Source of the DNA: Xanthobacteraceae bacterium
GTDB lineage: Bacteria > Pseudomonadota > Alphaproteobacteria > Rhizobiales > Xanthobacteraceae
NCBI GenBank assembly: GCA_028290465.1
Contig: JAQGJU010000146.1
Coordinates: 1 to 64,000 of the forward strand
Reading direction: 5' to 3'
DNA length: 64,000 nucleotides
A program made the position numbers and the translations under genes. Below are positions 2,526 to 26,555 of this stretch, piece after piece (position 1 is the first letter of the stretch; the number at the start of each line of letters is the position of its first letter). Below the pieces are notes generated by a model that searched no databases, was not told where the DNA came from, and worked only from the letters and a program-made list of their open reading frames with translations.

Positions 2526-2561
2526 CGATCAGTCGTTGGCCGAAGTGTCCGGCCGACGCCG

Positions 2562-2648
2562 TTACGCCAAGGTCAGCAGCGGAAGCAGGGCCAGCGCTGC
2601 CACGGCGGCCGTATTGGCAAAGTCATAGCGCAGCGAATACCAAAGCAT
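2562..2648 (-). CDS. possible 28-residue hydrophobic small protein
   Basis: A short reading frame starts at an ATG (2648) preceded by a GAAGAGG Shine-Dalgarno-like sequence about 9 nt upstream. It encodes 28 residues: a polar start (MLWYSLRYDF) and then a single hydrophobic stretch rich in Ala and Leu that could span the membrane. Only the ribosome-binding site and the hydrophobic composition support it. It lies convergent with the preceding phosphotransferase gene. No function can be given. Confidence 0.3.
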   Translation of the reverse strand: MLWYSLRYDFANTAAVAALALLPLLTLA

Positions 2649-2919
2649 CTGAACACGCCTCTTCGGGCCAGTAGGTAGGGCGGAACCTAGCGGCGGCGTA
2701 TGACGGCTCGATTGCAGATTTGTGTAAAATTTGACGGGCCGGCCGCCTGCGACAGACGTTGTGAACTTCGCTAAGCCAGCATCTGCTTGGAGGCGAAAAG
2801 TCAGCCTGCTGCAACCCGGGCGGTTGGATTTCCTGAACGGCAATGAGTAGTTAAGCCGACCGTAAGGTCGAATCCTATAGCATCCCAATGGCATGTTGAT
2901 GACATGTATTGGGGATTTT
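2649..2919. other. intergenic region upstream of the PstS-like gene
   Basis: Together with the small candidate frame before it, this makes a stretch of nearly 400 bases without a clear gene. It would hold the promoter of the PstS-like gene at 2920. I see a short hairpin, CGACC-gtaa-GGTCG, at 2857-2870 and a GGGGA ribosome-binding sequence at 2911-2915. I cannot identify a convincing sigma-70 promoter or a Pho box by eye. Confidence 0.5.
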
Positions 2920-3690
2920 ATGAGCATTGCCGCGCGATTCATGGGCTTGACGATTGCGCTGGCCGCGCTGGTGGCCGCCACTGGCGCCGAAGCCAACAAC
3001 TTTGTTGTACAGGGATCAACAACTTTCAACAGAAGGATAATGATTCCTTACCAGCCCGCCATCGAGGCGGCGTCCTCGCACAAACTCACGGTGATCCCCA
3101 ATAAGTCGTCGATCGGCGTTCAGGCGCTGTTCGAGAAGCGCGCCGATTTTGCGATGATTTCAGGTCCGCTCAACGATGAGATCGCGATCCTTGGCAGCAC
3201 CAACCCTAATCTGAGCTTCGACCGGCTGAAAGTATTTCCAATCTCGACGACCCGGATGTCATTCGCCATTCACCCGAATAACCGCGTCCGTCAGGTCACG
3301 ACCGACAAGATGAAACGCGTATTGCTGGGCGAGATCGTCAACTGGAAAGAACTTGGCGGCGACGACCGTCCGATCCGCCTCGTTGTCGTTCGTGAAGGTG
3401 GCGGCGTTCAGGCCACGGTCGAGTCCACCATGATGGGCGGCGCTAAAATCAACCCGGTGGATCCGATCCGGGTTCAGATCAGCACCCAGGTCCTGAAGAT
3501 CGTGGAACAGGAGCCGGGTGCGATCGGGCTCGCGCAACTCAGCGAAGTCATCCAAGCCAAAGGCACCGAACTTCTTTTGGATAAGCCGGTCACGCAGACA
3601 TTGAGCCTGGTGACGCTTGGCGATCCGACGCCCGAAATGCGCAAGCTGATCGATGCGGCCGAACACGTCGCAACCGTCAACCGCGATTGA
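2920..3690 (+). CDS. PstS-like phosphate-type periplasmic solute-binding protein (orphan)
   Basis: The 256-residue product has a Sec signal peptide with a likely cut after AEA (residue about 25). It then shows the PBP-like pattern of phosphate-binding proteins: QGSTTFNRR near the new N-terminus, KRADFAMISGPL, and LLGEIVNWKELGG followed by VVVREGGGVQATVES, which corresponds to the PstS segment IF.G.I.NW...GG ... R..GSGT. The ATG at 2920 was chosen over the in-frame ATG at 2893 because it directly precedes the signal peptide and has GGGGA upstream. No pstC, pstA or pstB is nearby. The next gene is a membrane GGDEF-EAL protein starting at or just after this stop codon, so a ligand-sensing role feeding c-di-GMP signalling is plausible but inferred. 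Binding of phosphate itself is not proven by the motifs. Confidence 0.8.
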   Translation: MSIAARFMGLTIALAALVAATGAEANNFVVQGSTTFNRRIMIPYQPAIEAASSHKLTVIPNKSSIGVQALFEKRADFAMISGPLNDEIAILGSTNPNLSFDRLKVFPISTTRMSFAIHPNNRVRQVTTDKMKRVLLGEIVNWKELGGDDRPIRLVVVREGGGVQATVESTMMGGAKINPVDPIRVQISTQVLKIVEQEPGAIGLAQLSEVIQAKGTELLLDKPVTQTLSLVTLGDPTPEMRKLIDAAEHVATVNRD

Positions 3691-3704
3691 CGAGAACCAG
3701 GCTC

Positions 3705-6197
3705 ATGGCCATTCGCTTCATCCGTAACCGATTAGGAATAGCGGCGAAGCTGTATTGCGTCGCGGCGCTGTCCGGCGTCACGGTTGTCGCGCTGGTCTTT
3801 GCCTCGATCCATTTCGCCGGGGTGACCGAGCAGGCGGCCAATCGGCTCTATCGCGACGGATTCTCGGGCATTCAGGTTGTGACCAATTTGCAGGCGCTGC
3901 TCGAACAGCATCGCCGGATTGTGGAAAGCGCGCCCGCCGAAGTCGATCGCGTGCGCCTGGAAGCCAGCCAGCGCGCGATGATCGACAACGGTGCGCAGCT
4001 TACCGCGCTGGTTCGCGAACTGACCAACAGCAAGAGCGACCCGGTGCAGGACGGGCTTGAGCTGGAGATGCAGTCCTACCTGCCCAATCTCATCAAGTCG
4101 GGACAGGAAGTTCTGTTCTTTGCCTACAATTTTGCGCAGGACAATGCGATCTCGGAGGCGACGAAGTATTCGGCACTGGCCGATCAGTTCGAGGGGCAGA
4201 TAAAACTGTACCGGGTTCATCGCCTCGAACTCGCGAACGGTGCCGTAACAAGCATGTTCGAAAGCGCCCGGTCATTGACCCTGTGGGTTTCGATCAGCGC
4301 GCTCGCGGCGCTGATCCTCATCGGTCCCTTGGGGCTGACCATTACCAGCAGCGTGCTGCGGCGCCTGGCCCGCATCACGGCCAGCATGACCCGGCTAGCG
4401 AACCACGATGCCAGCGCCGAAGTGCCGTCGCGCGGCGACCGCGATGAAGTAGGCAACATGGCGCGGGCCGTGCAGGTCTTCAAGGACAATGCGGTCGAAC
4501 TGTTGCTGCGCAAGACCGAGGCCGAGCAGGCGACGATCCGGCTCGGTGTCGCGATCAACAACATGACGCATGGCCTTTGCATGTTCGGGGCCGACCAGCG
4601 GATGATCATCTGCAACGACCGCTACAAGGCGATGTACGATCTGCCGGACGATCTGACCAAGCCCGGTGCGGTCTGGCAGGACATCCTGTTGCACCGGGAA
4701 AACGTTGGCATGCTTGGTAAGTCGATACGCCAGGCGATCGGCGAGAAGGTCGAAGCTGCCGACACGGGGATCAGCACCTATACTAATTCGCTTCCGGATG
4801 GGCGCGTGATCGCCGTATCCCGGCAGACCATGCCGGAGGGCGGCTGGGTGGCCGTCCATGAGGACGTCACCGAACGCCAGCATGCCGAAGCGCGCATCAC
4901 GCATCTGGCGCATCACGATCATCTGACGGATCTGCCGAACCGGGCGTTCTTCCGGGAAGAGCTGACCCAGGCGGTCGGGCGCATGCGACGGGATGAATCC
5001 TTCGCGGTGCTGTGGCTCGATCTCGACCGGTTCAAGAACGTCAACGATACGTTGGGTCATTCCGTCGGCGACGTTCTGCTCAAGCAGGTCGGCCTGCGGC
5101 TCGGCAATTGCGCCGGCCCGGGAAATTTCACCGCCCGGCTTGGCGGTGACGAATTTTCGATCATCTGCGGCCATGGACAGAACCCCGACGAGATCGGTCG
5201 GTTGGCGCAGCGGATCATCGACGCGGTCAGCTTGCCGTATTCGGTCGACGGTCATCAGATCATCGTCGGCGTGACGATTGGGATCGCGATCGCGCCCAAT
5301 GATGGTGTCGACCCCGACCAGTTGCTGAAGAACGCCGACATCGCGATGTACCGGGCCAAGGCCGAGGGGCGCGGCACCTATCGCTTCTTCGAGCCGGAAA
5401 TGGATCGGCTCATTCAGGCCCGACGCTCGCTTGAAATAGACCTGCGGCAGGCACTGACCAATGGACAACTCGAACTGTACTACCAGCCCCTGATCAATCG
5501 CGTGTCCGGCGGCGTCACGGCGATGGAAGCGCTGTTGCGGTGGAATCATCCGAGCCGCGGATTGATTCAGCCGGGCGATTTCATCCCTCTGGCCGAGGAA
5601 GCCGGTTTGATTTCATCGCTCGGCGAATGGGTGGTGCGAACCGCCTGCGCCGAGGCGCTGACATGGCCGTCCAATATCAAGGTCGCCGTCAACCTGTCGG
5701 CGATTCAGTTCAAGGGCGGAAATCTCGTTCACACGATTCTCAGCGCCTTGGCCCGATCCGGGCTCGTCGCAAGCCGGCTGGAAGTGGAGATCACGGAGTC
5801 GGTGCTGCTCGATGACGATCCGGCGACCGTCGCCGTCCTGCATCAGTTGCGCGGGCTCGGGGTGCGTATCGTGATGGACGATTTCGGCACCGGCTATTCG
5901 TCGCTCAGCTACTTCCGCCGCTTTCCGTTCGACAAGATCAAGATCGATCGCAGCTTCATTCGCGATGTGACCGATGAAAGCGATGGACTTAAGATCGTCC
6001 GGTCGATCATTCAGCTCGCCAACAGCCTTAAGATCGACGTGGTGGCCGAAGGGGTCGAGACCGCTGAGCAATTGCGGATCGTCAGCCAGGAAGGCTGCAC
6101 CGAATTCCAGGGCTACTTCTTCAGCAAGCCGCAGCCGGCGAGCCGGATCGCTGATGTCATCAAGCGCTGTGGCCGCCAGATCAAGGCCGTGGCGTAA
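3705..6197 (+). CDS. membrane-bound diguanylate cyclase/phosphodiesterase (TM-sensor-TM-HAMP-PAS-GGDEF-EAL)
   Basis: The 830-residue protein has a TM helix at about 14-36, a periplasmic helical region of about 150 residues, and a second TM at about 190-212. A HAMP linker, a PAS domain (about 285-395), GGDEF (about 405-565) and EAL (about 580-825) follow. The GGDEF motif (480-484) is intact, and the RxxD inhibitory site expected just before it is replaced by GPGN, so product inhibition is probably absent. The EAL motif (608-610), NLSAIQF, EITES, DDFGTGYSS and EGVE are intact, so both cyclase and c-di-GMP phosphodiesterase activity are possible. An in-frame TTG at 3687 overlaps the stop of the preceding gene (TTGA) and would allow translational coupling; the ATG at 3705 is the conservative start. 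The neighbouring PstS-like protein is the likely periplasmic partner (inference). Confidence 0.92.
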   Translation: MAIRFIRNRLGIAAKLYCVAALSGVTVVALVFASIHFAGVTEQAANRLYRDGFSGIQVVTNLQALLEQHRRIVESAPAEVDRVRLEASQRAMIDNGAQLTALVRELTNSKSDPVQDGLELEMQSYLPNLIKSGQEVLFFAYNFAQDNAISEATKYSALADQFEGQIKLYRVHRLELANGAVTSMFESARSLTLWVSISALAALILIGPLGLTITSSVLRRLARITASMTRLANHDASAEVPSRGDRDEVGNMARAVQVFKDNAVELLLRKTEAEQATIRLGVAINNMTHGLCMFGADQRMIICNDRYKAMYDLPDDLTKPGAVWQDILLHRENVGMLGKSIRQAIGEKVEAADTGISTYTNSLPDGRVIAVSRQTMPEGGWVAVHEDVTERQHAEARITHLAHHDHLTDLPNRAFFREELTQAVGRMRRDESFAVLWLDLDRFKNVNDTLGHSVGDVLLKQVGLRLGNCAGPGNFTARLGGDEFSIICGHGQNPDEIGRLAQRIIDAVSLPYSVDGHQIIVGVTIGIAIAPNDGVDPDQLLKNADIAMYRAKAEGRGTYRFFEPEMDRLIQARRSLEIDLRQALTNGQLELYYQPLINRVSGGVTAMEALLRWNHPSRGLIQPGDFIPLAEEAGLISSLGEWVVRTACAEALTWPSNIKVAVNLSAIQFKGGNLVHTILSALARSGLVASRLEVEITESVLLDDDPATVAVLHQLRGLGVRIVMDDFGTGYSSLSYFRRFPFDKIKIDRSFIRDVTDESDGLKIVRSIIQLANSLKIDVVAEGVETAEQLRIVSQEGCTEFQGYFFSKPQPASRIADVIKRCGRQIKAVA

Positions 6198-14194: not shown

Positions 14195-15649
14195 TCAGGC
14201 CTCGCTGCCGGCGAAGATGTCCTTGCGGATTACCGCGTGGACGCCCCAATTGCCGTCGACCACCTGGGTGATACCGAAATCGACCCCGACCGTGATCAGC
14301 GAAATCGCCTCGTCCTCGGTCAGCTTTTTGGTGGTCATCAGGAACTTGCGCATCTTGCGGAACGCATCGCGCAGCGCGAGATCGACCGACGATTTCGAAT
14401 AGATCTCGGACTGCGCCTTCGGTCCCAACTCGGTCAGGTAGTTGGCAAACGAGAAACCGTGCACCAGCCATTCGTTCTGGGTTTCCAGCATCGGATAGTC
14501 GAGCTGCTCCAGCGCGGTGCCGCCGAGATCGGCCTTCTTGTGAAGGATGATCTGGAACGTGCCATTTAGCGAACATTCGATCGCTGTGCCGCATAGCTCG
14601 GAATCGCCCTGCGACGCATGGGGGTCGCCGACCGACAGCAGCGCGCCCGCCACTGCGACCGGGTAATACATCGTCGCGCCTTTGCCGATCCGCCAATTGT
14701 CGATATTGCCGCCGGTGTAGCTCGGCGGGATCGAATCCACCATGTCGGCTTCACTGGGCGCGAGGCCGATCACGCCGAAATGCGGCCGCACCGGAATGCG
14801 CACGCCTTTGAGAATGCCGTGGTTTTCCTTGACGGTCGCGTGGTCGACCGGCACGCCCGGATAGTCGATGGTTTTGTGAACCACGCCGGACGGATCGGTC
14901 TGCGGCGTCCATTGGAAATTATAGACCGCCTGCGCCCAGTTGCGGCTGCCGGTGACGTCGACCTCGTAGATCGTGATCACCTCGCGCTGTTTCGGTTCGG
15001 TGAGCAGATCCTTGTAGTGGAAGCCCCACCAGGCGGCGGCGTTCGACCCATAGGCCTTGCCGGGATATTTCGCGTTGCCGCAGGGCCGCGGCGTCACGTC
15101 GATGATGCGCAGTTCGATCACGTCGCCAGGCTCGGCGCCGCGCACATAGACCGGTCCGGTGCAGATATGCACGCCGAGGCCTTCGCCGGCACCGCGACCG
15201 AACAGCGAGGCGTCCATCGGGCCGGCGCCGCGCCGGTTGACGCCCTTCTTTTCCTTGGTCCACAGGAACACGCTCTCGGCACCCGGATCGCCCTTCACCA
15301 TGCGCTCGGCGTCGTCATTGGCGTGATGGGTCAGCGCCTCGATGGTGACGATGTCGCCCGAGTCGATCTCGACTTGCGGCTTCAGGTTCTTGCTGAAATA
15401 GCCCCAATGCACCGTGTCGGCGGTCGCCGGCAGATGATGATAGGCGCGCTTCGCCGGTTGGCGCGCGGCGGCAGCCTGCGCCATCGCGGGCGTGACCAGC
15501 GAGATGCTGCCGGCGCTGAGCGCCGCGGCGCCGCCCGCCGCCGCGAAGCTCGATTTGAGAAACGAACGGCGTTCGTGGTCGAGCGTGTCCTTGAACTGCC
15601 GGTGGTGCGTCTCAAATTCCGGGCAATTTTTATCGTCGCCTGCGCACAT
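14195..15649 (-). CDS. Tat-exported acetamidase/formamidase family protein
   Basis: The 484-residue product carries a Tat-type signal with Arg27-Arg28 (HERRSFLKSSF) and a hydrophobic Ala-rich segment ending near AMAQA. The rest is the FmdA/AmdA fold (PF03069 type): DTVHWGYFSK, DIVTIEALTHHANDD, RRGAGPMDASLFGRGAGEG, GVHICTGPVYVRGAEPGD, SNAAAWWGFHYKD and VDFGITQVVDGNWGVHA. Family members hydrolyse short amides such as formamide or acetamide to the acid and ammonia. The start at 15649 was chosen because GAGGAGA lies 7 nt upstream; the longer frame upstream has no supporting site. Its closest visible relative is the C-terminal domain of the divergent neighbour. Export suggests that it works in the periplasm, probably with a folded metal-bound active site (inference). 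Confidence 0.9.
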   Translation of the reverse strand: MCAGDDKNCPEFETHHRQFKDTLDHERRSFLKSSFAAAGGAAALSAGSISLVTPAMAQAAAARQPAKRAYHHLPATADTVHWGYFSKNLKPQVEIDSGDIVTIEALTHHANDDAERMVKGDPGAESVFLWTKEKKGVNRRGAGPMDASLFGRGAGEGLGVHICTGPVYVRGAEPGDVIELRIIDVTPRPCGNAKYPGKAYGSNAAAWWGFHYKDLLTEPKQREVITIYEVDVTGSRNWAQAVYNFQWTPQTDPSGVVHKTIDYPGVPVDHATVKENHGILKGVRIPVRPHFGVIGLAPSEADMVDSIPPSYTGGNIDNWRIGKGATMYYPVAVAGALLSVGDPHASQGDSELCGTAIECSLNGTFQIILHKKADLGGTALEQLDYPMLETQNEWLVHGFSFANYLTELGPKAQSEIYSKSSVDLALRDAFRKMRKFLMTTKKLTEDEAISLITVGVDFGITQVVDGNWGVHAVIRKDIFAGSEA

Positions 15650-15946
15650 TTTAGTCTCCTCGCGAAGTTCTGGCGAATGCTCACGGCGCTTCAGTCTGCG
15701 CGCTGGCTTGATCTCCAGCAATGACCGGGAGCGCACAGTTTCTTGTCGCGGCGCCTGCTGGCCGGCGGCGTCATGTTTTTGTGCGTCTGAGGTCAAAACG
15801 GTCTGGACTGGCCCGACCTACGATTGGTCATGCGGCAATCCGGGCGGCTGCACATTGCCGTCGCAAGATAATAAGTGCAGGCTTGGGTGCCGGGCCGACC
15901 ATAGAGCCAATGCGTTGCGCTGTTTGCGCGACGCCGTGGGGGGACT
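15650..15946. promoter_or_regulatory. divergent control region between the two acetamidase genes
   Basis: This gap of about 300 bases must hold the promoters of both divergent genes. A CTGCAC/GTGCAG inverted pair lies at 15848-15853 and 15875-15880, about 70-100 bases upstream of the AraC-acetamidase start. A purine-rich GTGGGGGG precedes that start. AraC proteins normally bind direct repeats of about 17 bp; I do not see a convincing pair by eye. Confidence 0.4.
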
Positions 15947-18295
15947 ATGCCCGCCAAGACCGAACGGATCTCTGTCGACGAGGTTCCGCTGCGCAGCCAG
16001 CGCGACACTTGGCAGGCGGCGTTGGCCGGTCTTTCGCTTGATTTCCGGCTGCCGGAGAATGCGTCCTTTCATTCCGGCGAACTCGCCGCCAAAAGCTCAT
16101 CGACCGGCGCGCGGCTTGCGCTGCTGCGCTCGACCGCGCAGGACATCGTCTGCGCGGGCTCGGGACCGGACCGAAACGTCCATCCGCCGATTGCGATCAT
16201 CTTTCATGCCTATGGACGCGGCACCATCGGCGCCGGTTCTCGCACCTGCGAATTCGCCGATGGCGACCTGTCGGTGTGCGATCTGCAGACCGCATGGACT
16301 CTTCATCTGCGCGAGGATTTCGAAATCCTGCTGTTCGAGGTGCCGCGCGAACGGCTGACCGGCCGGCTCGGCCGCAATCGTGTCCGTCTGCCGGCGGTGC
16401 TCGGCACCACCATCGCGGCGGCCGCGGCGCGGCCGGTACTGCGAATATTGGCCGGAAATTTCAATGGGCTCGATCAGGCCGACCTCGCGTCCGCCGAAGT
16501 CGCGCTGACCGAACTCGTCGCCGGCGCACTGCTCGGCGAGAGCCGACACGACGCCGATACGGCCACACAGGTGCAGGCCGCGCATCTGCGGCGGGTCTAT
16601 GCGACCATCGAGGCGCGGCTCGGCGATGCCGAACTGTCGATGGCCGATGTGGCGCGTCAGGAGGCGCTATCGCAACGCTATCTGCAGCGCCTGTTCGAAT
16701 GTCAGGACACGACATTTTCGAATTTCGTGCGCGAACGCCGGCTGGAGCGCTGCCGGATCGATCTGGTCGATCCGAAATATGCCGCGCAGAGCATCGCCGA
16801 TATCGGCTATCGCCGGGGCTTTCGCGATCAGGCCTATTTCAGCCGCGCTTTCAGCGCGGCCTATGGCACCTCGCCGCGCGATTTTCGCAAAGCCGTGCCG
16901 CGCGATCCGGAAGCCGATCGCACGCGCGGCCGGCCGCTGTTGCGTTCGCTGCCGTTAAAGCCGTTGGCGCGGTCGATGCCGGACGGCGAGGGCGATGTGG
17001 CCAGCGAAGTTGCGCGCGCGGTTCCTGGCGAAGGTGGCGCGCCGGAGCCGGGCGATGCGCCCGCCTATCATCTGGCGGTGTCCAAGGACACCGTGCATTG
17101 GGGCTACCTCAGCCGCGCCATTCCGCCGGTGCTGCGGGTCAAGCCGGACACGCGCGTCACCATCGAGACCCTGACCCAGCATGCGTTCGACGACTACGAC
17201 CGCATGATCAAGGGTGATCCCGGTGCCGAGAGCGTGTTCCACTGGACACCGGAAAGCAAAGCCGTCGAGCGGCGCGGCGCCGGTCCGATGAACGCGTCGA
17301 TCTTCGGTCGTGGCGCCGGCGAAGGCTTCGGCGTGCACATCTGCACCGGGCCGGTGCATGTCTGCGGCGCCGAGCCCGGCGACGTGCTCGAAGTTCAGAT
17401 CCTCGACATAAGGCCGCGACCCTGCGCCAATCCGGAATTCGCCGGCAAGGCGTTCGGCAGCAATGCGGCCGCTTGGTGGGGCTTTCAGTACAACGACCTG
17501 ATCGACCATCCGGCGCGGCGTGAGGTCGTCACTATTTTCGAGACCGATGCGGCGAGCGCCGAGACTGCGCGGGCGGTGTATTCGTATCGCTGGACGCCGC
17601 AGACCGATCCGTTCGGCGTGCGCCACGACACCATGGATTATCCGGGCGTGCCGGTGAACCGCGCCAGCATCGAGGAGCGGCCGGGCGTGCTGGCCAAGGT
17701 GCGGATTCCGGCGCGGCCGCATTTCGGTGTCATGGCGGTGGCGCCGCGCGAATCCGATCTGGTGGACTCGATTCCACCCGGCTATTTCGGCGGCAACATC
17801 GACAATTGGCGGGCCGCCCAAGGCACGACGCTCTATCTGCCGGTCGCGGTGCCGGGCGCGTTGTTCTCGGTCGGCGATCCGCATTTCGCGCAGGGCGACG
17901 GCGAAATCAACGGCACCGCGTTGGAGTTCTCCCTGACCGGCGATTTTCGCTTCGTGCTGCACAAGAACGGACAGAGCGCCAAACCGTTCCTGGAGGGTCT
18001 GGCGTCGCCGCTTTTGGAAACGCCGGACGAGTGGGTGCTGCACAGCTTCAGCTACACCAACTATCTGCGCGAACTCGGCCGCTACGCGCAGTCGGAGGTC
18101 TACAAGAAATCCTCGGTCGATCTCGCTTTGCGCAACGCCTTCCGGGCGGCACGCAAATTCCTGATGGAGCATTATGCGCTGAGCGAGGACGAGGCGGTGG
18201 CGCTGATCTCGCTCGGTGTCGATTTCGGCGTCACCCAGGTCGCCGACGGCAATTGGGGCGTGCACGCGATCATTCGGAAGAAGATGTTCGTGTAA
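15947..18295 (+). CDS. AraC-family transcription regulator fused to an acetamidase/formamidase domain
   Basis: One uninterrupted 782-residue frame holds two unrelated modules. Residues about 10-195 form an AraC-type ligand/cupin-like N-terminal domain (AraC_binding_2 style). Residues about 212-316 form a double HTH of the AraC family (MADVARQEALSQRYLQRLF and the signature SIADIGYRRGFRDQAYFSRAF...GTSPRDFR). A linker of about 50 residues leads to a complete FmdA/AmdA domain (about 372-782; DTVHWGYLSR, RRGAGPMNASIFGRGAGEG, GVHICTGPVHVCGAEPGD, SNAAAWWGFQYND, VDFGVTQVADGNWGVHA), highly similar to the divergent Tat-exported paralogue but without a signal peptide. It probably stays in the cytoplasm, where the amidase domain might act on the inducer or serve as a ligand sensor (inference). 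No frameshift is needed to read through. Confidence 0.9.
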   Translation: MPAKTERISVDEVPLRSQRDTWQAALAGLSLDFRLPENASFHSGELAAKSSSTGARLALLRSTAQDIVCAGSGPDRNVHPPIAIIFHAYGRGTIGAGSRTCEFADGDLSVCDLQTAWTLHLREDFEILLFEVPRERLTGRLGRNRVRLPAVLGTTIAAAAARPVLRILAGNFNGLDQADLASAEVALTELVAGALLGESRHDADTATQVQAAHLRRVYATIEARLGDAELSMADVARQEALSQRYLQRLFECQDTTFSNFVRERRLERCRIDLVDPKYAAQSIADIGYRRGFRDQAYFSRAFSAAYGTSPRDFRKAVPRDPEADRTRGRPLLRSLPLKPLARSMPDGEGDVASEVARAVPGEGGAPEPGDAPAYHLAVSKDTVHWGYLSRAIPPVLRVKPDTRVTIETLTQHAFDDYDRMIKGDPGAESVFHWTPESKAVERRGAGPMNASIFGRGAGEGFGVHICTGPVHVCGAEPGDVLEVQILDIRPRPCANPEFAGKAFGSNAAAWWGFQYNDLIDHPARREVVTIFETDAASAETARAVYSYRWTPQTDPFGVRHDTMDYPGVPVNRASIEERPGVLAKVRIPARPHFGVMAVAPRESDLVDSIPPGYFGGNIDNWRAAQGTTLYLPVAVPGALFSVGDPHFAQGDGEINGTALEFSLTGDFRFVLHKNGQSAKPFLEGLASPLLETPDEWVLHSFSYTNYLRELGRYAQSEVYKKSSVDLALRNAFRAARKFLMEHYALSEDEAVALISLGVDFGVTQVADGNWGVHAIIRKKMFV

Positions 18296-18328: not shown

Positions 18329-19309
18329 CTATTTGTTCAAGCCGGCAGACTTGAGCACCGCAACCCATTTGTCGATGTCTTCGCGGATGAATGCCGCGAA
18401 CTCGGCCGGCGTGCCGCCGAGCGGATCGATGCCTTGCGCATTCAGCGCGGTCCTGACCGATTCGGTAGTCAGCGCCTCGCTGGTGCCGGCGGCAAGTTTT
18501 TCGACGATCTCCTTCGGCGTGCCGGCCGGCGCCATCAGGCCGATCCAGATGCCGGTGTCGAAGCCCGGCATGCCTTGTTCGGCCATGGTCGGCACGTCCG
18601 GCATCACGCCGGCGCGTTTCGGCTGGGCCATGCCGAGCGGTTTCAGCGAACCCTGCTTGACATGCGGCGCCAATGTCGCGGCGACATTGAACATTAATGT
18701 GATACGTCCGGCCAAAAGATCCGTCACCGCTTGGCTGCTGCCGCCTTGATAATGCACCGCCAGGATCTTGGTGCCGGCCTTGGCATTGAACAGTTCGGCC
18801 GCGAGATGGCTCGCGGTGCTGGCCCCGGAGGTGCCGAAGGTCAGGCTGTCGGGCTTGGCCTTGGCGAGCGCGACAAGCTCCTGGACGTTGGCGGCGGCGA
18901 CCGACGGATGCGCGACCAGCATGTTGGGCACCACGCCGAGCAGCGCGACCGGCTCCATGTCCTTGCCGAGATTGAACGCCGTGCCGTTGACGGCGGGGTT
19001 AAGTGTGTTGGCGACCGTCGCCATGAACAGCGTATAGCCATCCTTGGGTGCGCGGGCGACGGTTTCGGCGGCGATCATGCTGCTGTTGCCCGGCCGGTTT
19101 TCGACGACGACCGGTTGGCCGAATTTCTGCTCGATATGCTTGGCGACCAGCCGGGCCAGGATGTCGGCGCTGGTGCCGGGCCCGAAGCCGATCAGGATGC
19201 GGATCGGGCCGGTCGGATAGGTCTGGGCCAGCGCGGCGCCCGAAGCCATCGCCAGGAGGCCAAGGCCCAGTGCCGTACTTCGAACCCAAGACTGGATGTG
19301 TCGCTTCAT
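18329..19309 (-). CDS. Bug/TctC-family tripartite tricarboxylate-type solute-binding protein
   Basis: The 326-residue product has a signal peptide (cut near GAALAQ) and the Bug family pattern: YPTGPIRILIGFGPGTSADILARLVA, QPVVVENRPGNSSMIAAETVA, DGYTLFMAT, MPDVPTMAEQGMPGF and a C-terminal EDIDKWVAVLKSAG. GGGGGAAG precedes the ATG. Bug proteins bind carboxylates, amides or aromatic compounds in the periplasm. No tctA or tctB membrane genes adjoin. It is convergent with the AraC-acetamidase gene (33-base gap), so a link to amide or carboxylate use is possible but unproven. Confidence 0.93.
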   Translation of the reverse strand: MKRHIQSWVRSTALGLGLLAMASGAALAQTYPTGPIRILIGFGPGTSADILARLVAKHIEQKFGQPVVVENRPGNSSMIAAETVARAPKDGYTLFMATVANTLNPAVNGTAFNLGKDMEPVALLGVVPNMLVAHPSVAAANVQELVALAKAKPDSLTFGTSGASTASHLAAELFNAKAGTKILAVHYQGGSSQAVTDLLAGRITLMFNVAATLAPHVKQGSLKPLGMAQPKRAGVMPDVPTMAEQGMPGFDTGIWIGLMAPAGTPKEIVEKLAAGTSEALTTESVRTALNAQGIDPLGGTPAEFAAFIREDIDKWVAVLKSAGLNK

Positions 19310-19504: not shown

Positions 19505-19542
19505 GACTCTGATCCGATTCACCAAATCGGATCAGAGTCTAG
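19502..19542. terminator. perfect 18-bp palindrome at the end of the exoprotein gene
   Basis: CTAGACTCTGATCCGATT and its exact reverse complement AATCGGATCAGAGTCTAG are separated by CACCA. The stop codon and last two or three codons of the exoprotein gene (minus strand) lie in one arm. It abuts the palindromic repeat at 19441-19504. A stem this long at a gene end can stop transcription or protect the mRNA 3' end, although there is no clear T-run. Confidence 0.7.
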
Positions 19543-22500
19543 GCCGGATCGATGAGGTGATATCCGGTGCCTCGCTGGCCGCCGCGTTCAACGCCCCATA
19601 GGCATCGACGAGGCCCGCGCCGTATTCCGCGTCATGTCCCTTGGGCCCAAGATCCTTCGCGGTCGACATCAGGATGCGGCGAACGCCCTCATGGCCGAGC
19701 GTCGGATTGCGCTGCAGCAGCAGCGCCGCCAACCCGCTGACATGCGCGGTGGCGATCGAGGTGCCGGTGGACATTTCGTAGCGGCCGCCCGGCGACAGCG
19801 CCAGCACGTCGACGCCCGGCGCCGCGACGGCGATATACTTGCCGCGATTGGCGCCCGGGAACACCTTGTCGTCGAGATCGGTCGCCGTGACCGCGATCAC
19901 GTTCGGATCGGCGGCCGGAAACAGCGGCGGCGATTTCGGGCCGGCATTGCCGGCGGCGGCAATCAGCACCATGCCCTTGCGGCGGGCGACGGCAAGCGCG
20001 CGCGACAGCATCGGGTCGGGCGGACCGGCGAAGCTCATATTGACGATCTTCGCGCCGTGCGCCGCCGCCCAGTCGAGGCCTTTGATGATCTCGAAGGTGT
20101 TGCCGCCGGCCGAGCCGAACGCCTTGATGGCCAGCACATCGACGCCGGGCGCAACGCCCAGGATGCGGCCGCGCGACGCGATGGCGCCGGTCATGCTGGT
20201 GCCATGCGCGTGCGGCTCGGCCATATTGTCGCCGAGCGCGTCGAAGGCCTCGAACTTGACGGTCTTGAGATCCGGATGCGTGCGGTCGACCTCGGAGTCG
20301 ATGACCGCGACCACGATCTGTTCGCCGCGTGAGACGCGATGCGCTTCGGTCAGCCGCAGCTTGCTGAGGCTGTATTGCAGTGACGACGGGCTGGCAACAC
20401 CGGTGGCGCGGCTGGCCGGATCGGCCGACAGATCCTGCGACGACGACAGGTCCTGCGCCGACGAAAGGTCCGGCGCGGTGCCCTGCGTCAAGCTGTAGAC
20501 GTAGTTCGGTTGCGCGGCGCCGACCTTGTTGCCGCCGGCTTCCATCGCCCGGATCACATCGGCGACGGTGCGGCCGGCCGGAAGGCGGAAGCGGAACATC
20601 GACGTGCCGGCCATGTTGAAGTCCTGCGCGCCAAGCACGTTGAGGCCGAGCTGCCGGGCGATCGCCTCGACGCGGTCGCGCGGCACCGTCTGCTCGATCT
20701 CGAGCGTGACTTCGTTGGAGACGTAACGCGTCTCGGTGATCGGCGGCACACCGCTCGGCAGTTTGTCGAGCGGGGGACGGTTGAGTCCCCGGATGCCGGC
20801 GGTCGTCGCCGGATCGCCGGGACGGCCCGGACGGTTCGTGCCGGGCGTATTGGTGTTCGGCGTGCCGGCCGGATCGTTGTTGACGATCTCGATCACCGTT
20901 CCGGGATTGTCGGTCTTCGCGTCGAGGATGGCGACGTGTTGCAGCAAATCGTCGATCAAATTGACGATGCCGTTGAGGAAGTCCTTCTCGGTCGGATCGA
21001 TATAACCGTTCGGCGATGGTTTCGCGTAGGGCACGGCCGTCAGGTACGGATATGACGTGGGGGGACCGGGATCGATGGTCCAGTCGGTAGTCGAGAACCC
21101 GGGCGGCAGACCAGCTATCAATTGCGCAGTGGTTTTGGGGTCACCGCCGGCGCTGACTGACTGCCCGGTGGTTTCGGTGTTCCAGTAAGAACTCGTCGTC
21201 GTGCCGGCGGTGTTCGACAGCGTCAGAGTAGTCCCGAAACTGAGGCCAATGGCGTTGATCCAGCCGGGCGGTGTGCCGGTCAACAGGTTCTCCGCGACAA
21301 GGCCGCCCTTCACGCTGCCGGGCGCGGCCGTCACGGCGCCGACAGCATAGGTCTGATCGATGGTGCCGCCATTGACGCCGACAAGTCCGCCGACCGCGCT
21401 GCCGCTGTCGCCGTGCACCGCACCGGTCGCGTAGGCTTTCGAGATGCTGGAGGGCGGCGTCAACGCACCATAGCTCAGGCCGCCGTTCACGCCGACGAGG
21501 CCGCCGACCTTGCTGTGAGCACCGCCGTAGACGTCCCCGGCAGCGAACGACAGCGAGATATCGCCGACATTGCCGCCGACAAGGCCGCCGACGTAACTCT
21601 GGTCCCCGCCGACAACGACGCCGCTCGCATAGGAGGTGGTGATCGTGCCGTCCGGACCGTTGCTGCCGACGAGACCGCCGACCATACTGTTGTTGCTGGC
21701 GAGCACGTCGCCCCAAGCGCTTGATTGTGATTGGATCGCGCCCTGATTGGCGCCGACCAGGCCGCCGACCGCGCTGTTTGGGCCGCCGAAAACATCGCCA
21801 CTCGCCACCGCGCCGAAGATTGCGCCGCCGGTTTCGTTGGTGCCGACCAGACCGCCGATATTGGAGCGGCTGGCGCCGGTCACATTGCCATGCGCCGAGG
21901 CAAGGCCGGAGCCGAGGATCGATAGAATGCCAAAATCAGTGATCGAGCCTGAGTTGGTTCCGACGAGGCCGCCCAGACTTGCATGGTCCACCGTGCTGAG
22001 GACATTGCCAAAGGCCTGCGAATGCAGGATGTCGCCGACATTGGTGCCGACAAGACCGCCGGCGGTGGCATTGCAGCAGACGCTGCCCGTATCGGTTCCG
22101 TTGACGGTAACGTTGCCCAGGGCCTGCGAGAGCGTAATCTTTCCGGTATATGTCGTGGGGCCGGACACCATCCACCCGTTCGCGCCGACCAGTCCGCCCA
22201 CCGCCAGACGATCCACGCCGGAAGAACCCGGTCCAAACGATGCCGTGCCGATGACATTTCCTTCGGCGTAGCCGCCCAAGATTTCGCCGGAGTTGAAGCC
22301 GACCAAGCCACCCGCATTGCTGCCGTGCTTGACGCTGACATCGCCGCTGGCGCTCGAGCCCAAGATGGAATTTGCCGCGGTGCTGATGTTCACGCCGACC
22401 AGACCGCCGGCCATGACATACGCGCCGGCCCCGGTCGCGATAACATTTCCTTCCGCACCGCCCCCCGTGATGGTGCCGTTGTTGGTGTTCATGCCGACGA

Positions 22501-24847
22501 GACCGCCAAGATAAGCGAAGATCGGATACGTGCTCAGGGCGCCCTGGCCGCTAACGTTTCCGGTCGCGTAGGAATATTGAATGGTTCCGGCATTGAGGCC
22601 GACCAGTCCTCCGGCCATGCTCGATAAGCCGCTCGTGGCCGCACTCGCACTCACATTCGCGGACGACGACGAATACTGGATGAGGCCGTTGGCAAGATTT
22701 TCGCCCACCAGTCCGCCGACCATGGCACCGGCTGTGGCGCCGCTGCCTACCGTGCCGCTGACCACATGCACGTTCGAAATCGTGCCTTCGTTGGTGGCCG
22801 CCAGGGCACCGGCCTTGCCGTTGGACTGCCCGGTCGCAACGCTGACGTGCTCTAGGAACAAGTTCTGCACCCGTCCGTTCGCGCCGATATAGCCAAACAG
22901 TCCGGCGTTGCTGGCCGACAGATGCAGTGTCAGATTGTCGATGGTGTGAAATTGGCCGTCGAACACGCCGTTGAACTGCGAATACGTGTACGAACTGCCG
23001 ATCGGGTTGGCGAACCCGGTGGCATCGATGTCGCGGCCCAGCGCATAGGCGCCGTTGACGTTGGTCGCAATGGCCTGGAGATTGGTGACGTTGTTCACCA
23101 GCATATAGGCGGTGAAATCAGGCGAGATTACAGAAGTCCCATAGGACGTCGGCGCCGCATAGCTGGTCGGATTGTAGAAGATCGATACCGCGCCACCGGT
23201 ACTGAAATTGACCTGGCCGGTGGTGTTTAGCGTCACCGTGCCGGTCCCGGTGCCGGTATTGTCGGCGCGCATCACCAGCTTGCCGCCGCCGGTGTTGCTG
23301 ATAGCCCCGCTGCCGTCGAAGATAATGTGGCGATACGCGCTCAGCGTCAGCATCGCCGATGTCGTCCAATGGATCGATGCCGCGACGGTGATGTCGCCGC
23401 TGCCGCCGATCCCGCCGAACGACGTCTGCTTGAAGACGTTCGTACCGGAGTTCAGCGACGTTTCGATCGTCGCGGCGAGCGATGCATCAATCAGCAGATC
23501 GTCCGGATCGAGCAGCCAGGTGCCGCCCTGGCCGGCGCTCACCTTGGAGCCGCCGACATTCAGGAACTTGCCCGAGGTCTCGACAAACCCGCCATTGCCG
23601 CCCTTGCGGCCGCCGGTCGCCAGGATGGTGCCGTAGAACGTGGTCGCGCCGTTCGACCACAGCACGACCTTGCCGCCATCGCCCTGGCGCTTCGCGGACG
23701 CATTGATCACCGTCATGGCGTCGGCGGTGAGCGTGGTCGCGTTGGAGATCGCTTCGTTCTCCAGCATGGCTTGCGGCACCAGTGCATTGCCCTTGCCGCC
23801 CCCGACATCGCCGCCGATCAGCACCTTGCCGCCGCCGGCCTTGCCGGAGGCGTCGATGTTCGCGCCGGTCAGCGTGATGCTCTCGCCGGTGATCTTGACC
23901 TTGCCGCCCTTGGTGCCGGCATCCTTGCCGGCTGCCGATAGCGTGCCCGAGACCTTAACGTTCTGCGCCGGCGCGCCCGCGACTTTAGTGGATGCGGTGG
24001 CGGCGCCAAGAATGATCTGGCCGCCTTTCTGGCCGACCGTATTGGCTTCGATCACGCCGGTATTGTTGATCACCGAGTCGACCACCTGCCGGGCGGTGAC
24101 GGCCGACAGTTCGACCCTGCCGCCATTGGCCGACAGCTTGCCGGTGTTCTTGACCAGGGCGTCCAGCGTCTCGCCGGTCGCGACATCCTTCACCGATGCC
24201 GCGATCTGATCGCCGACCTGCAGCGTGATCAGCTTGTCGCCGTAGAAGTCGAGCGTGAAGCCGTTGCCGGACGCAAGACTGACGCTGCCGACATTGGCCG
24301 TGATGGTGCCGCTGTTGCGCACGCCGGGCGCGACCAGCGCCGCGAAGCCGGAATCCGTCGCCGTGATGGTGCCGAGATTGACGATCGAGGCGTCGGGCCG
24401 GCCGGGCCGGTCGAACACATAGCGGCCGGCCATGAAGTCGTCGTTCTTGATGCCGCTCGTGGTCGCCAGGAAGCCGGCGGTGTTCACGATCGAGTTCGGT
24501 CCGAACAGGATGCCGTCCGGATTGACCAGGAACACCTTGCCGTTGGCCGACAGCGTGCCGAGGATCTGCGACGGGCCGAGACCTCCGGTCACGCGGTTCA
24601 GTACGACCGAACCTGAGTTCGGCTGGTTGAAGCGCGTGAGTTCGCCATTGCCGATGTTGAAGGAGCGCCAATCGATGATGGCGCGGTCGGTGTGCTGGTT
24701 GACGATGACGGTTGAGGTGCCGAGGCCGCCGACGGTCGCGGCGCCGCCGACCACGTTCGGGCCGTCCGGATTGGCGCGCGCGGCGCCGCTTGCCAACGCG
24801 GTCAGCGCTACCGTGGTCAGCAGAAGGGAGCGAAACTGGTGCATCAT
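19532..24847 (-). CDS. TpsA-type two-partner secretion exoprotein with GLUG repeats and a C-terminal subtilisin-like protease
   Basis: The 1771-residue protein starts with a Sec signal (cut near residue 25) and a filamentous-haemagglutinin secretion domain (about 26-200) containing the NPDGI motif at 109-113. A beta-helix region follows, then about 15 GLUG-type repeats (GGLVG.N.G.I....A.G.V; about 680-1190), a Pro/Thr/Asn linker, and an I9-like propeptide (about 1373-1452). The C-terminus is an S8 subtilase with Asp1517 (VAVIDSEVD), His1548 (HAHGTS), the oxyanion Asn in AAAGNAG, and Ser1697 (GTSIATAHVSG), so the catalytic set is complete. GGGAGGGG directly precedes two adjacent ATGs; the second (24844) has the better spacing. 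It is 7 bases downstream of its TpsB gene. It probably acts as a secreted or surface adhesin able to cleave itself or other proteins (inference). Confidence 0.93.
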   Translation of the reverse strand: MMHQFRSLLLTTVALTALASGAARANPDGPNVVGGAATVGGLGTSTVIVNQHTDRAIIDWRSFNIGNGELTRFNQPNSGSVVLNRVTGGLGPSQILGTLSANGKVFLVNPDGILFGPNSIVNTAGFLATTSGIKNDDFMAGRYVFDRPGRPDASIVNLGTITATDSGFAALVAPGVRNSGTITANVGSVSLASGNGFTLDFYGDKLITLQVGDQIAASVKDVATGETLDALVKNTGKLSANGGRVELSAVTARQVVDSVINNTGVIEANTVGQKGGQIILGAATASTKVAGAPAQNVKVSGTLSAAGKDAGTKGGKVKITGESITLTGANIDASGKAGGGKVLIGGDVGGGKGNALVPQAMLENEAISNATTLTADAMTVINASAKRQGDGGKVVLWSNGATTFYGTILATGGRKGGNGGFVETSGKFLNVGGSKVSAGQGGTWLLDPDDLLIDASLAATIETSLNSGTNVFKQTSFGGIGGSGDITVAASIHWTTSAMLTLSAYRHIIFDGSGAISNTGGGKLVMRADNTGTGTGTVTLNTTGQVNFSTGGAVSIFYNPTSYAAPTSYGTSVISPDFTAYMLVNNVTNLQAIATNVNGAYALGRDIDATGFANPIGSSYTYSQFNGVFDGQFHTIDNLTLHLSASNAGLFGYIGANGRVQNLFLEHVSVATGQSNGKAGALAATNEGTISNVHVVSGTVGSGATAGAMVGGLVGENLANGLIQYSSSSANVSASAATSGLSSMAGGLVGLNAGTIQYSYATGNVSGQGALSTYPIFAYLGGLVGMNTNNGTITGGGAEGNVIATGAGAYVMAGGLVGVNISTAANSILGSSASGDVSVKHGSNAGGLVGFNSGEILGGYAEGNVIGTASFGPGSSGVDRLAVGGLVGANGWMVSGPTTYTGKITLSQALGNVTVNGTDTGSVCCNATAGGLVGTNVGDILHSQAFGNVLSTVDHASLGGLVGTNSGSITDFGILSILGSGLASAHGNVTGASRSNIGGLVGTNETGGAIFGAVASGDVFGGPNSAVGGLVGANQGAIQSQSSAWGDVLASNNSMVGGLVGSNGPDGTITTSYASGVVVGGDQSYVGGLVGGNVGDISLSFAAGDVYGGAHSKVGGLVGVNGGLSYGALTPPSSISKAYATGAVHGDSGSAVGGLVGVNGGTIDQTYAVGAVTAAPGSVKGGLVAENLLTGTPPGWINAIGLSFGTTLTLSNTAGTTTSSYWNTETTGQSVSAGGDPKTTAQLIAGLPPGFSTTDWTIDPGPPTSYPYLTAVPYAKPSPNGYIDPTEKDFLNGIVNLIDDLLQHVAILDAKTDNPGTVIEIVNNDPAGTPNTNTPGTNRPGRPGDPATTAGIRGLNRPPLDKLPSGVPPITETRYVSNEVTLEIEQTVPRDRVEAIARQLGLNVLGAQDFNMAGTSMFRFRLPAGRTVADVIRAMEAGGNKVGAAQPNYVYSLTQGTAPDLSSAQDLSSSQDLSADPASRATGVASPSSLQYSLSKLRLTEAHRVSRGEQIVVAVIDSEVDRTHPDLKTVKFEAFDALGDNMAEPHAHGTSMTGAIASRGRILGVAPGVDVLAIKAFGSAGGNTFEIIKGLDWAAAHGAKIVNMSFAGPPDPMLSRALAVARRKGMVLIAAAGNAGPKSPPLFPAADPNVIAVTATDLDDKVFPGANRGKYIAVAAPGVDVLALSPGGRYEMSTGTSIATAHVSGLAALLLQRNPTLGHEGVRRILMSTAKDLGPKGHDAEYGAGLVDAYGALNAAASEAPDITSSIRPRL

Positions 24848-24854
24848 CCCCTCC

Positions 24855-26555
24855 CTAATTCCTGACTGTGGCGATGAAGAAGAAGCGCCAGTCGTCGCGC
24901 GGCCCGGCGACAGCTTTCGCGGCCGACAGATCGAGCAGCGCGTTGTCCATCCAACCGAGCCGCAGGCCGAGACCGGCCGAGGTGCCGCTCTGGGTTTCGG
25001 GCGTGCCGGCTGCCGGCTCGCGGCGATAGGCTTCGCCGCGGTCGAGGAACGTATAGATCTGGCTCTGCTTGAGATACTTGAAGGCGTCCGCCTGATCCTT
25101 CGGCAGCCCGCCGAGCGGTAGGTCGTAGCGCAGCTCCGCGCTGGCCATCCAGCAATGGTCGCCGGTCAGTTCGGACGGATCGAAGGCGCGGCCGATATTG
25201 CGGCCGCCGAAGCCGCATTGCTCGGGCGCCAGCAGCGTGGTGAGTGCGTATTGCGTCTCGGCCGCGACGGCGAGAGAGAACCCGGCGCCGAGCGGCTGCA
25301 CGCGGCTGGCGCTGAATTCGACCTTGCTGAAGTCCACCCGGCCGGCCGCGACCGAAGCCAGCAGGTTGCCGTTGTCCGTGCTGCCGAAGCCGTGAACGCC
25401 CTGGCTGTAGGTGGCGCTGAACCGGTTGATGCCGCGCAAGCTGTCGGCCATGTCGAAATCGGCGCGCAAGCGAAAACCGCGCAGCCGGTCGTCGGAAAAC
25501 AGCGACTCCAGCATGTCGCCTTCGCTGTTGCTGGCGAAGATCAGGCCGGTGAGAATCAGGTTGCGTTCCCGGGTGCGGATCACCGGATAGCTCAGCCCGC
25601 CTTCGAACACGAGGCTGCGGGTCTTGAACGCCAGCAGTTCGAGTTCGGACAGGCCCGGCTTGCCGGCGGCGTAGCTGATATTGGCGAAACCGGTCAGGCC
25701 TTCGCTGTTCAGCACCTGCCGATAGCCGGCGCCGACGAACTGCAATTCCTTGAACTGGAACGTGCCCCCATAGGTGAGCGTGAAGGCTTCGTGGGCGCCG
25801 ATCAGATTGTTGGCGGTCCCGGTTACCAGATACTGGTAGGGGCCGCGCGCCTTGCTGCCGCGATTGTCGACCCGCGCGGCGGCGTCATACGGCTTCTCGG
25901 TGACCTCGACGACCAGCGTCGAGGCGCCGGGATTGCGGGTCGAAGGCCGCAGCTTGGTGCTGAATTTCAGGCCCGGCAGGTCGCCGGCGAGCAACAGATA
26001 ACGCTCGAGCGTGCGCACATTGGCCGGCCGGTCGGCCAGGATGCGGGCGGAATAGTCCGAGAAAAAGTCGCGATAGCGCGACAGCTTGTCGGGCCACACC
26101 ACTTGGTCGACATAGCCCTCGACCACCTGGATTTTGACATCGGCGCCGGAGCGGTCGAATTTCTGCGGCGGTACGATGGCACGGGACAGCACATAGCCGT
26201 CATTGCCGTACCGGGCGGTGATCTTCTTGGCGAGGTCGTAGACCTCGGCGAGAGAAACCTCGCGGCCGATCAGGTCGCCATACAGGGCGGCCAATTGCTC
26301 GCGGCTGTATACGGTAGAACCGACCACGGTGACGCTGCGCAGCCGGACCATGATGGTGGCCGCCCCGGCGGGCGGCTCGGTGCTGGGCAATGTGACGCCG
26401 GGCCCGACCGGTCGCGACAGAGGCGGCGTAATATCTTGAAATTGCTCGCGTTCGCGCCCCGGCTGCGCGGTGGGTGGAATCACCTGCGCAGCGGCGGCGA
26501 GCGGCATGCCCGCGACCACGACGGTCAGCGCCAGCCGGTATAACGGCCCCCACAT
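24855..26555 (-). CDS. TpsB outer-membrane transporter (ShlB/FhaC/HecB family)
   Basis: The 566-residue product has a signal peptide (cut near AAAAQ), a Pro-rich N-terminal stretch, and two POTRA domains (about 70-145, SVTVVGSTVYSREQL...ITARYGNDGYVLSRAIVPPQ; and about 145-215). A 16-strand-type barrel follows to the C-terminal aromatic-rich end (DWRFFFIATVRN). The segment GGRNIGRAFDPSELTGDHCW, before a strand ending ELRYD, occupies the place of the conserved L6 loop of FhaC, with an RAF variant of the VRGY motif. It recognises the secretion domain of the exoprotein encoded directly downstream and moves it across the outer membrane. The exoprotein's Shine-Dalgarno sequence overlaps the end of this gene, so translation is coupled. 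Confidence 0.93.
   Translation of the reverse strand: MWGPLYRLALTVVVAGMPLAAAAQVIPPTAQPGREREQFQDITPPLSRPVGPGVTLPSTEPPAGAATIMVRLRSVTVVGSTVYSREQLAALYGDLIGREVSLAEVYDLAKKITARYGNDGYVLSRAIVPPQKFDRSGADVKIQVVEGYVDQVVWPDKLSRYRDFFSDYSARILADRPANVRTLERYLLLAGDLPGLKFSTKLRPSTRNPGASTLVVEVTEKPYDAAARVDNRGSKARGPYQYLVTGTANNLIGAHEAFTLTYGGTFQFKELQFVGAGYRQVLNSEGLTGFANISYAAGKPGLSELELLAFKTRSLVFEGGLSYPVIRTRERNLILTGLIFASNSEGDMLESLFSDDRLRGFRLRADFDMADSLRGINRFSATYSQGVHGFGSTDNGNLLASVAAGRVDFSKVEFSASRVQPLGAGFSLAVAAETQYALTTLLAPEQCGFGGRNIGRAFDPSELTGDHCWMASAELRYDLPLGGLPKDQADAFKYLKQSQIYTFLDRGEAYRREPAAGTPETQSGTSAGLGLRLGWMDNALLDLSAAKAVAGPRDDWRFFFIATVRN

Follow-up and report, generated by a model that had tools for sequence, protein, structure and literature searches.

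Can a transcriptional regulator use a copy of the enzyme that it controls as its own sensor? This question is raised by a gene found in a window of 64,000 nucleotides (the whole stretch of DNA analysed here) from a Xanthobacteraceae bacterium. The initial annotation described the product of this gene as an AraC-type regulator fused in one frame to an acetamidase/formamidase that shares its conserved blocks with an exported paralogue. In the databases, proteins of this kind are named either "acetamidase/formamidase family protein" or "AraC family transcriptional regulator", so that the other half is hidden in each case, and the open-licence papers searched gave no description of an AraC-acetamidase protein.

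Domain organization of the fusion protein

The gene occupies positions 15947-18295 of the forward strand and is a single open frame of 782 codons without interruption. Three Pfam domains, AraC_binding_2, HTH_18 and FmdA_AmdA, are found along the protein in this order, all above their gathering cut-offs, and the fold matches follow the same order, which bears out the fusion proposed initially. The structure of the protein was modelled with AlphaFold2 using an alignment of 50 fusions (mean pLDDT 84), and low confidence is limited to the linker (residues 320-368 in the model), a short stretch (residues 202-205) and a loop (residues 444-460).

The N-terminal part is a cupin-like domain (residues 1-200; 15947-16546) with the AraC_binding_2 match at residues 86-195, and residues 4-202 of the model match the N-terminal domain of the CuxR/AraC type. 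The AraC-type double helix-turn-helix (HTH) follows at residues 208-318 (16568-16900). Its HTH_18 match (residues 236-315) reaches 59.9 bits against a cut-off of 33.6, which identifies it as a double HTH of the AraC/XylS family, and residues 206-321 of the model match AraC-type double HTHs with Z scores of 12-16. A variable linker (residues 319-368; 16901-17050), which contains the sequence RGRP (residues 327-330; 16925-16936), leads to a complete FmdA/AmdA amidase domain (residues 369-782; 17051-18292). This last domain scores 102.4 bits with FmdA_AmdA (PF03069) against a cut-off of 27, and its model superimposes on PDB 3b9t over the whole mature length of the latter (Z 52.7, rmsd 2.5 Å, 59% identity). 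No Tat signal was seen on the fusion protein, which is therefore presumably cytoplasmic.

The names that can be given to the two halves are limited by more specific models. The protein scores 117.2 bits with the FeaR equivalog (NF007243), below its cut-off of 199, and 61.1 bits with the NCBIfam formamidase model NF045496, whose cut-off is 500; the neighbouring paralogue scores 60.8 bits with the latter. Neither protein should therefore be called a formamidase. Thus, the name "acetamidase/formamidase" given initially stands for the complete FmdA/AmdA domain at the level of the family, and not beyond it. For the same reason, and because the gene contexts described below point to various amides, the substrate should not be taken to be acetamide or formamide.

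Occurrence and origin

With one genome scanned per species, 155 stretches encoding relatives were obtained, and among the best 80 of these 155 the fusion is present in one frame at 78 loci besides that of the window, either at full length or truncated by the contig end. The carriers belong to the Alpha-, Beta- and Gammaproteobacteria and include Bradyrhizobium, Ancylobacter, Devosia, Mesorhizobium, Novosphingobium, Sphingomonas, Caulobacter, Parvibaculum, Roseibium, Burkholderia, Ramlibacter, Oxalicibacterium and a Moraxellaceae MAG, among others. The fusion is widespread but sparse: it was found in 8 of 398 genomes sampled from the phylum, and in 10 of 297 genomes drawn evenly from the same order as the window's genome, 21 of which carry the standalone enzyme alone. 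In nine of these ten fusion genomes the standalone paralogue directly adjoins the fusion.

The chance that the fusion is an artefact of annotation or assembly, or a chance in-frame join, is negligible. No support for such an artefact was found; the gene of Bradyrhizobium pachyrhizi (L037) appears to be split, but has unknown bases in its linker. The idea is refuted by the 78 other loci together with long matches on complete plasmid records. Both objections foreseen by the initial annotation, namely a faulty join and the lack of the architecture in any other genome, fail on the same grounds. A 661-aa open frame (C147) was considered as a second fusion and rejected, since its amidase is a 321-aa open reading frame.

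The regulator half has hardly any close relatives that are unfused. When this half alone was used as the query, nine of the ten strong matches lay in fused frames, and the tenth was a short frame close to the beginning of a contig. Compared with the standalone enzymes, the fused amidase domains group in one clade, with an SH-aLRT support of 95 that rises to 97 once the standalone enzymes of fusion-free genomes are added. The simplest account is a single ancient fusion followed by inheritance and transfer.

Neighbouring paralogue and gene contexts

The paralogue in the window was initially taken to be an exported enzyme, and this is confirmed by a Tat signal with an RRSFL motif. Its gene lies on the reverse strand (14195-15649, with a probable ATG start at 15649 in a frame that is open to 15796), and the FmdA-type product is 61% identical to the fusion over residues 355-781 of the latter. 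A divergent intergenic region (15650-15946) separates the two genes.

Three arrangements of the fusion gene are found. In arrangement A, that of the window, the fusion gene and the gene of a Tat-exported paralogue are divergently oriented, and these paralogues carry an RR[SG]F[LM] twin-arginine motif. In arrangement B, it is the last gene of an apparent operon that also encodes a family-3 solute-binding protein, an ABC permease-ATPase, and a cytosolic paralogue without a Tat signal. Arrangement C comprises the fusions without a close neighbouring paralogue. In Ancylobacter and its relatives (L015-L025, L036, L053 and L074; about 1000-6000), genes for a TRAP transporter (DctP, DctQ, DctM) and a gamma-glutamyltranspeptidase are divergent from the fusion, which suggests the uptake of a gamma-glutamyl or other amide. 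In the sphingomonads and Parvibaculum (L047-L050, L055, L080), the fusion is found near Rieske oxygenases, a LigB-type dioxygenase or a shorter amidase of a separate subfamily (about 363 aa, with a THHAGDAP block), a context that suggests an aromatic amide pathway. At one of these loci (L080, 12744-13700), an unfused AraC regulator directly follows the gene of the shorter amidase and represents an unfused counterpart of the same pairing. In Ancylobacter polymorphus, Ancylobacter defluvii and Rhizobium halophytocola (L016, L020 and L036), the genome has no close member of the subfamily other than the fusion.

Given that ABC uptake, TRAP transport with gamma-glutamyltranspeptidase, and Rieske oxygenases accompany the fusion at different loci, its ligand may differ from one locus to another. 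Since the partner is either exported or cytosolic and the fusion has no export signal, we infer that the regulator must read a cytoplasmic signal.

Predicted operator

When 16 divergent regions were submitted to a Gibbs search, a 26-bp motif emerged, roughly TGNNC-N5-CG[CA]ACAA-N4-TTGNC, with a score of 393 versus 234-239 in shuffled sequence. The window contains two predicted operators facing opposite ways, both within 15650-15946, the region named in the initial annotation: TGACCGGGAGCGCACAGTTTCTTGTC (15722-15747, forward strand), at 73 bp from the probable start codon of the paralogue, and TGACCTCAGACGCACAAAAACATGAC (15770-15795, reverse strand), at 152 bp from the start codon of the fusion gene. 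We next applied a matrix built on 14 group-A sites to 63 held-out loci; at a threshold of at least 14 bits, it gave 41 matches against 5.0 expected from dinucleotide shuffles. Many of these lie 47-105 bp upstream of amidase, solute-binding-protein, Rieske or fusion genes, in the opposite orientation to them; several that the script marked as lying inside open reading frames fall in frames that are over-extended at the 5′ end or on the opposite strand, with start sites that are not settled. The motif is also present between the fusion and the TRAP/gamma-glutamyltranspeptidase genes in Ancylobacter and relatives, and upstream of the Rieske gene in Parvibaculum. The group-A loci L031 and L035 have weak copies only, and no recognisable copy was seen near the fusion operon at the Roseibium/Rhodobacterales tandem loci.

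In the 5.5-Mb genome to which the window belongs, no site besides the two intergenic ones of the window fits the pattern with fewer than two mismatches; the pattern was written from these same two sites, so that their zero mismatches are by construction and only their uniqueness counts. The single match with two mismatches (G000:C132) was dropped as a further operator, being located inside a thiolase open reading frame.

Conservation across the protein

Conservation of each domain was obtained from an alignment of 50 fusions. It is highest in the amidase half, with a mean identity of 63% and 90 invariant columns out of 412, and the HTH has a mean identity of 51% (14 of 111 columns invariant). 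The cupin-like domain is the least conserved folded part: its mean identity is 27%, and one column in 200 is invariant. In the linker (mean identity 21%), the three invariant columns out of 52 are the R, G and P of an RGxP motif. This is the sole conserved feature of the linker, occurring in all 79 fusions (as RGRP in 55), and it was absent from all the unfused AraC tails looked at. Although RGRP looks like an AT-hook, this name was rejected because 24 of the 79 proteins have W, K, S, L or M in place of R329. The possibility that a free amidase is made from an internal translation start within the linker was also discarded, as a Shine-Dalgarno-like start is found in only 12 of the 79 linkers and is not conserved.

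In the amidase domain, H464, D619, D644, H646, D651, E653, E660 and D759 are kept in all 79 fusions, and Q649, Q764 and H773 in 78 of them. The polar residues common to nearly all the amidases compared, including those of the GGN-D and GD-H--QGD-E blocks, are thus retained; the conserved blocks that the initial annotation saw in both the fusion and its exported paralogue are motifs of the family, and both blocks are largely present in solved acetamidases too. No published assignment of the active site of the FmdA_AmdA family was found in the open-licence literature searched. At the level of the family motif residues, the amidase centre of the fusion looks intact.

Other positions differ. The evolutionary rate of the fused domain is about 2.5 times that of the neighbour enzyme in the same genomes; D402, R484 and K673 vary in the fusions though they are nearly invariant in standalone enzymes, and H411 is replaced by Q in 57 of the 79 fusions. 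The latter is not regarded as a lost catalytic residue, since this histidine is also absent from the classical acetamidase-type proteins of the same genome (L003, L004). F614 and L631 are invariant in the fusions and separate them completely, or nearly so, from the neighbour enzymes, most of which have T at the first position and which have Y at the second. These two residues were at one point considered as derived in the fusion; the idea was dropped because the classical acetamidase-type proteins share F and L, and for this reason the derived state may lie with the neighbour enzymes.

A captured amidase as the probable sensor of the regulator

The fusion is probably a local, self-regulated activator of the AraC type that recognises its signal through a captured copy of the amidase that it controls. 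An amide substrate, or its product, would enter the cytoplasm and bind to the amidase domain; binding would alter the seating of the linker-held double HTH on the two intergenic sites, and the repositioned HTH would then activate both the exported amidase and the gene of the regulator itself. With so small a predicted regulon, the fusion would act as a dedicated local switch. This reading is supported by the conservation of the fusion as a unit, its single clade, the intact fold and motif residues, the stronger conservation of the amidase half than of the cupin-like one, the neighbouring enzyme and uptake genes, and the shared predicted operator. Against it, the N-terminal domain, which is of the kind that binds the ligand in other AraC proteins, is still present, the motif is weak or missing at some loci, and the gene contexts vary.

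Since its centre looks intact, the amidase domain may also hydrolyse the inducer, thereby resetting the switch. The cycle could then be complete in a single protein: the domain would bind the amide, induce the exported or cytosolic amidase together with its own gene, and destroy the inducer at the same site. We put this forward as a tentative possibility. The suggestion of the initial annotation that such a regulator hydrolyses or senses its inducer would fit these observations. Judging by sequence, the retention of the motif residues favours such hydrolysis, and the faster evolution and the changes at nearly invariant positions leave room for a domain that only binds.

A domain of this second kind, which would bind its ligand but have lost its activity, as the shikimate-kinase-like domain of BzdR has, would account for the rate of evolution and for the variation at D402, R484, K673 and H411, and has in BzdR a precedent in which the loss of activity was judged essential (PMC3602430). 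Against it, all or nearly all copies retain every polar residue of the family motif, unlike typical dead enzyme domains, and H411 loses its weight once the classical proteins of the same genome are considered; we regard a fused domain without activity as improbable. It is also rather unlikely that the protein is bifunctional, with the cupin-like domain sensing the inducer and the amidase being a tethered cytoplasmic enzyme whose co-expression the fusion ensures. The fully kept motif residues would suit such an enzyme, as would the genomes where the fusion is the sole close member of its subfamily (A. polymorphus, A. defluvii and R. halophytocola, for example), and the N-terminal domain is modelled with good confidence. 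However, the poor conservation of the cupin-like domain weakens this possibility, because a single invariant column is hard to square with a shared ligand pocket; in addition, the gene of a standalone enzyme from this subfamily usually lies beside the fusion, which would make an extra tethered copy redundant, and the invariant F614 and L631 set the fusions apart from these neighbours.

Relation to known systems

The amidase half shares its fold and sequence with 3b9t, an FmdA/AmdA protein of the Tat pathway from Methylobacillus flagellatus. Unlike the fusion, the latter is standalone and exported, has no DNA-binding part, and carries Y at position 631 instead of the L of all fusions. It is a structural genomics entry, and we know of no tested function for it. 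The regulator half, on the other hand, has the N-terminal domain and AraC double HTH of FeaR and other AraC_binding_2 regulators and of CuxR (PDB 5nla), but these end after the HTH, with neither an RGxP linker nor an enzyme domain. The AraC-FmdA fusion is real and apparently undescribed, and is probably a type of sensor.

An enzyme fold and DNA binding are also combined in one protein in MocR/GabR, PutA and other trigger enzymes, with folds and pathways unrelated to those of the fusion. The HTH of BzdR is of the XRE type. The conversion of an enzyme domain into an effector domain is already a known idea from BzdR, a one-component regulator with an enzyme-derived effector domain that is similar to the fusion in principle (PMC3602430). 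The fusion family differs from it in both domains: BzdR has another HTH and another enzyme fold, lacks a cupin-like domain and has lost its activity, while the fusion keeps the motif residues and is encoded next to an enzyme of the parent type.

The evolution of enzymes into sensors is usually inferred from regulators with a long-dead enzyme domain; here, the motif residues are kept. A close paralogue that is both neighbour and probable target, an apparent single origin, the spread across Proteobacteria and the predicted operators make the question directly testable, and the fusion offers a ready-made architecture for an amide biosensor. If the switch does reset itself, the reading and the removal of the signal would share one active centre, and the fusion would represent in nature the "missing link" between enzyme and regulator that had to be constructed artificially for BzdR.

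Other genes of the window

Convergent with the fusion gene is a gene for a TctC-type periplasmic binding protein (18329-19309, reverse strand), outside the motif regulon as far as seen. Further along, also on the reverse strand, 19532-24847 encodes a two-partner-secretion exoprotein of 1771 aa with a TPS domain (residues 25-290) and GLUG repeats, and its TpsB-type transporter is encoded on the same strand at 24855-26555. The C-terminus of the exoprotein is a subtilisin-like protease domain (Peptidase_S8, residues 1508-1745), an unusual-looking combination.
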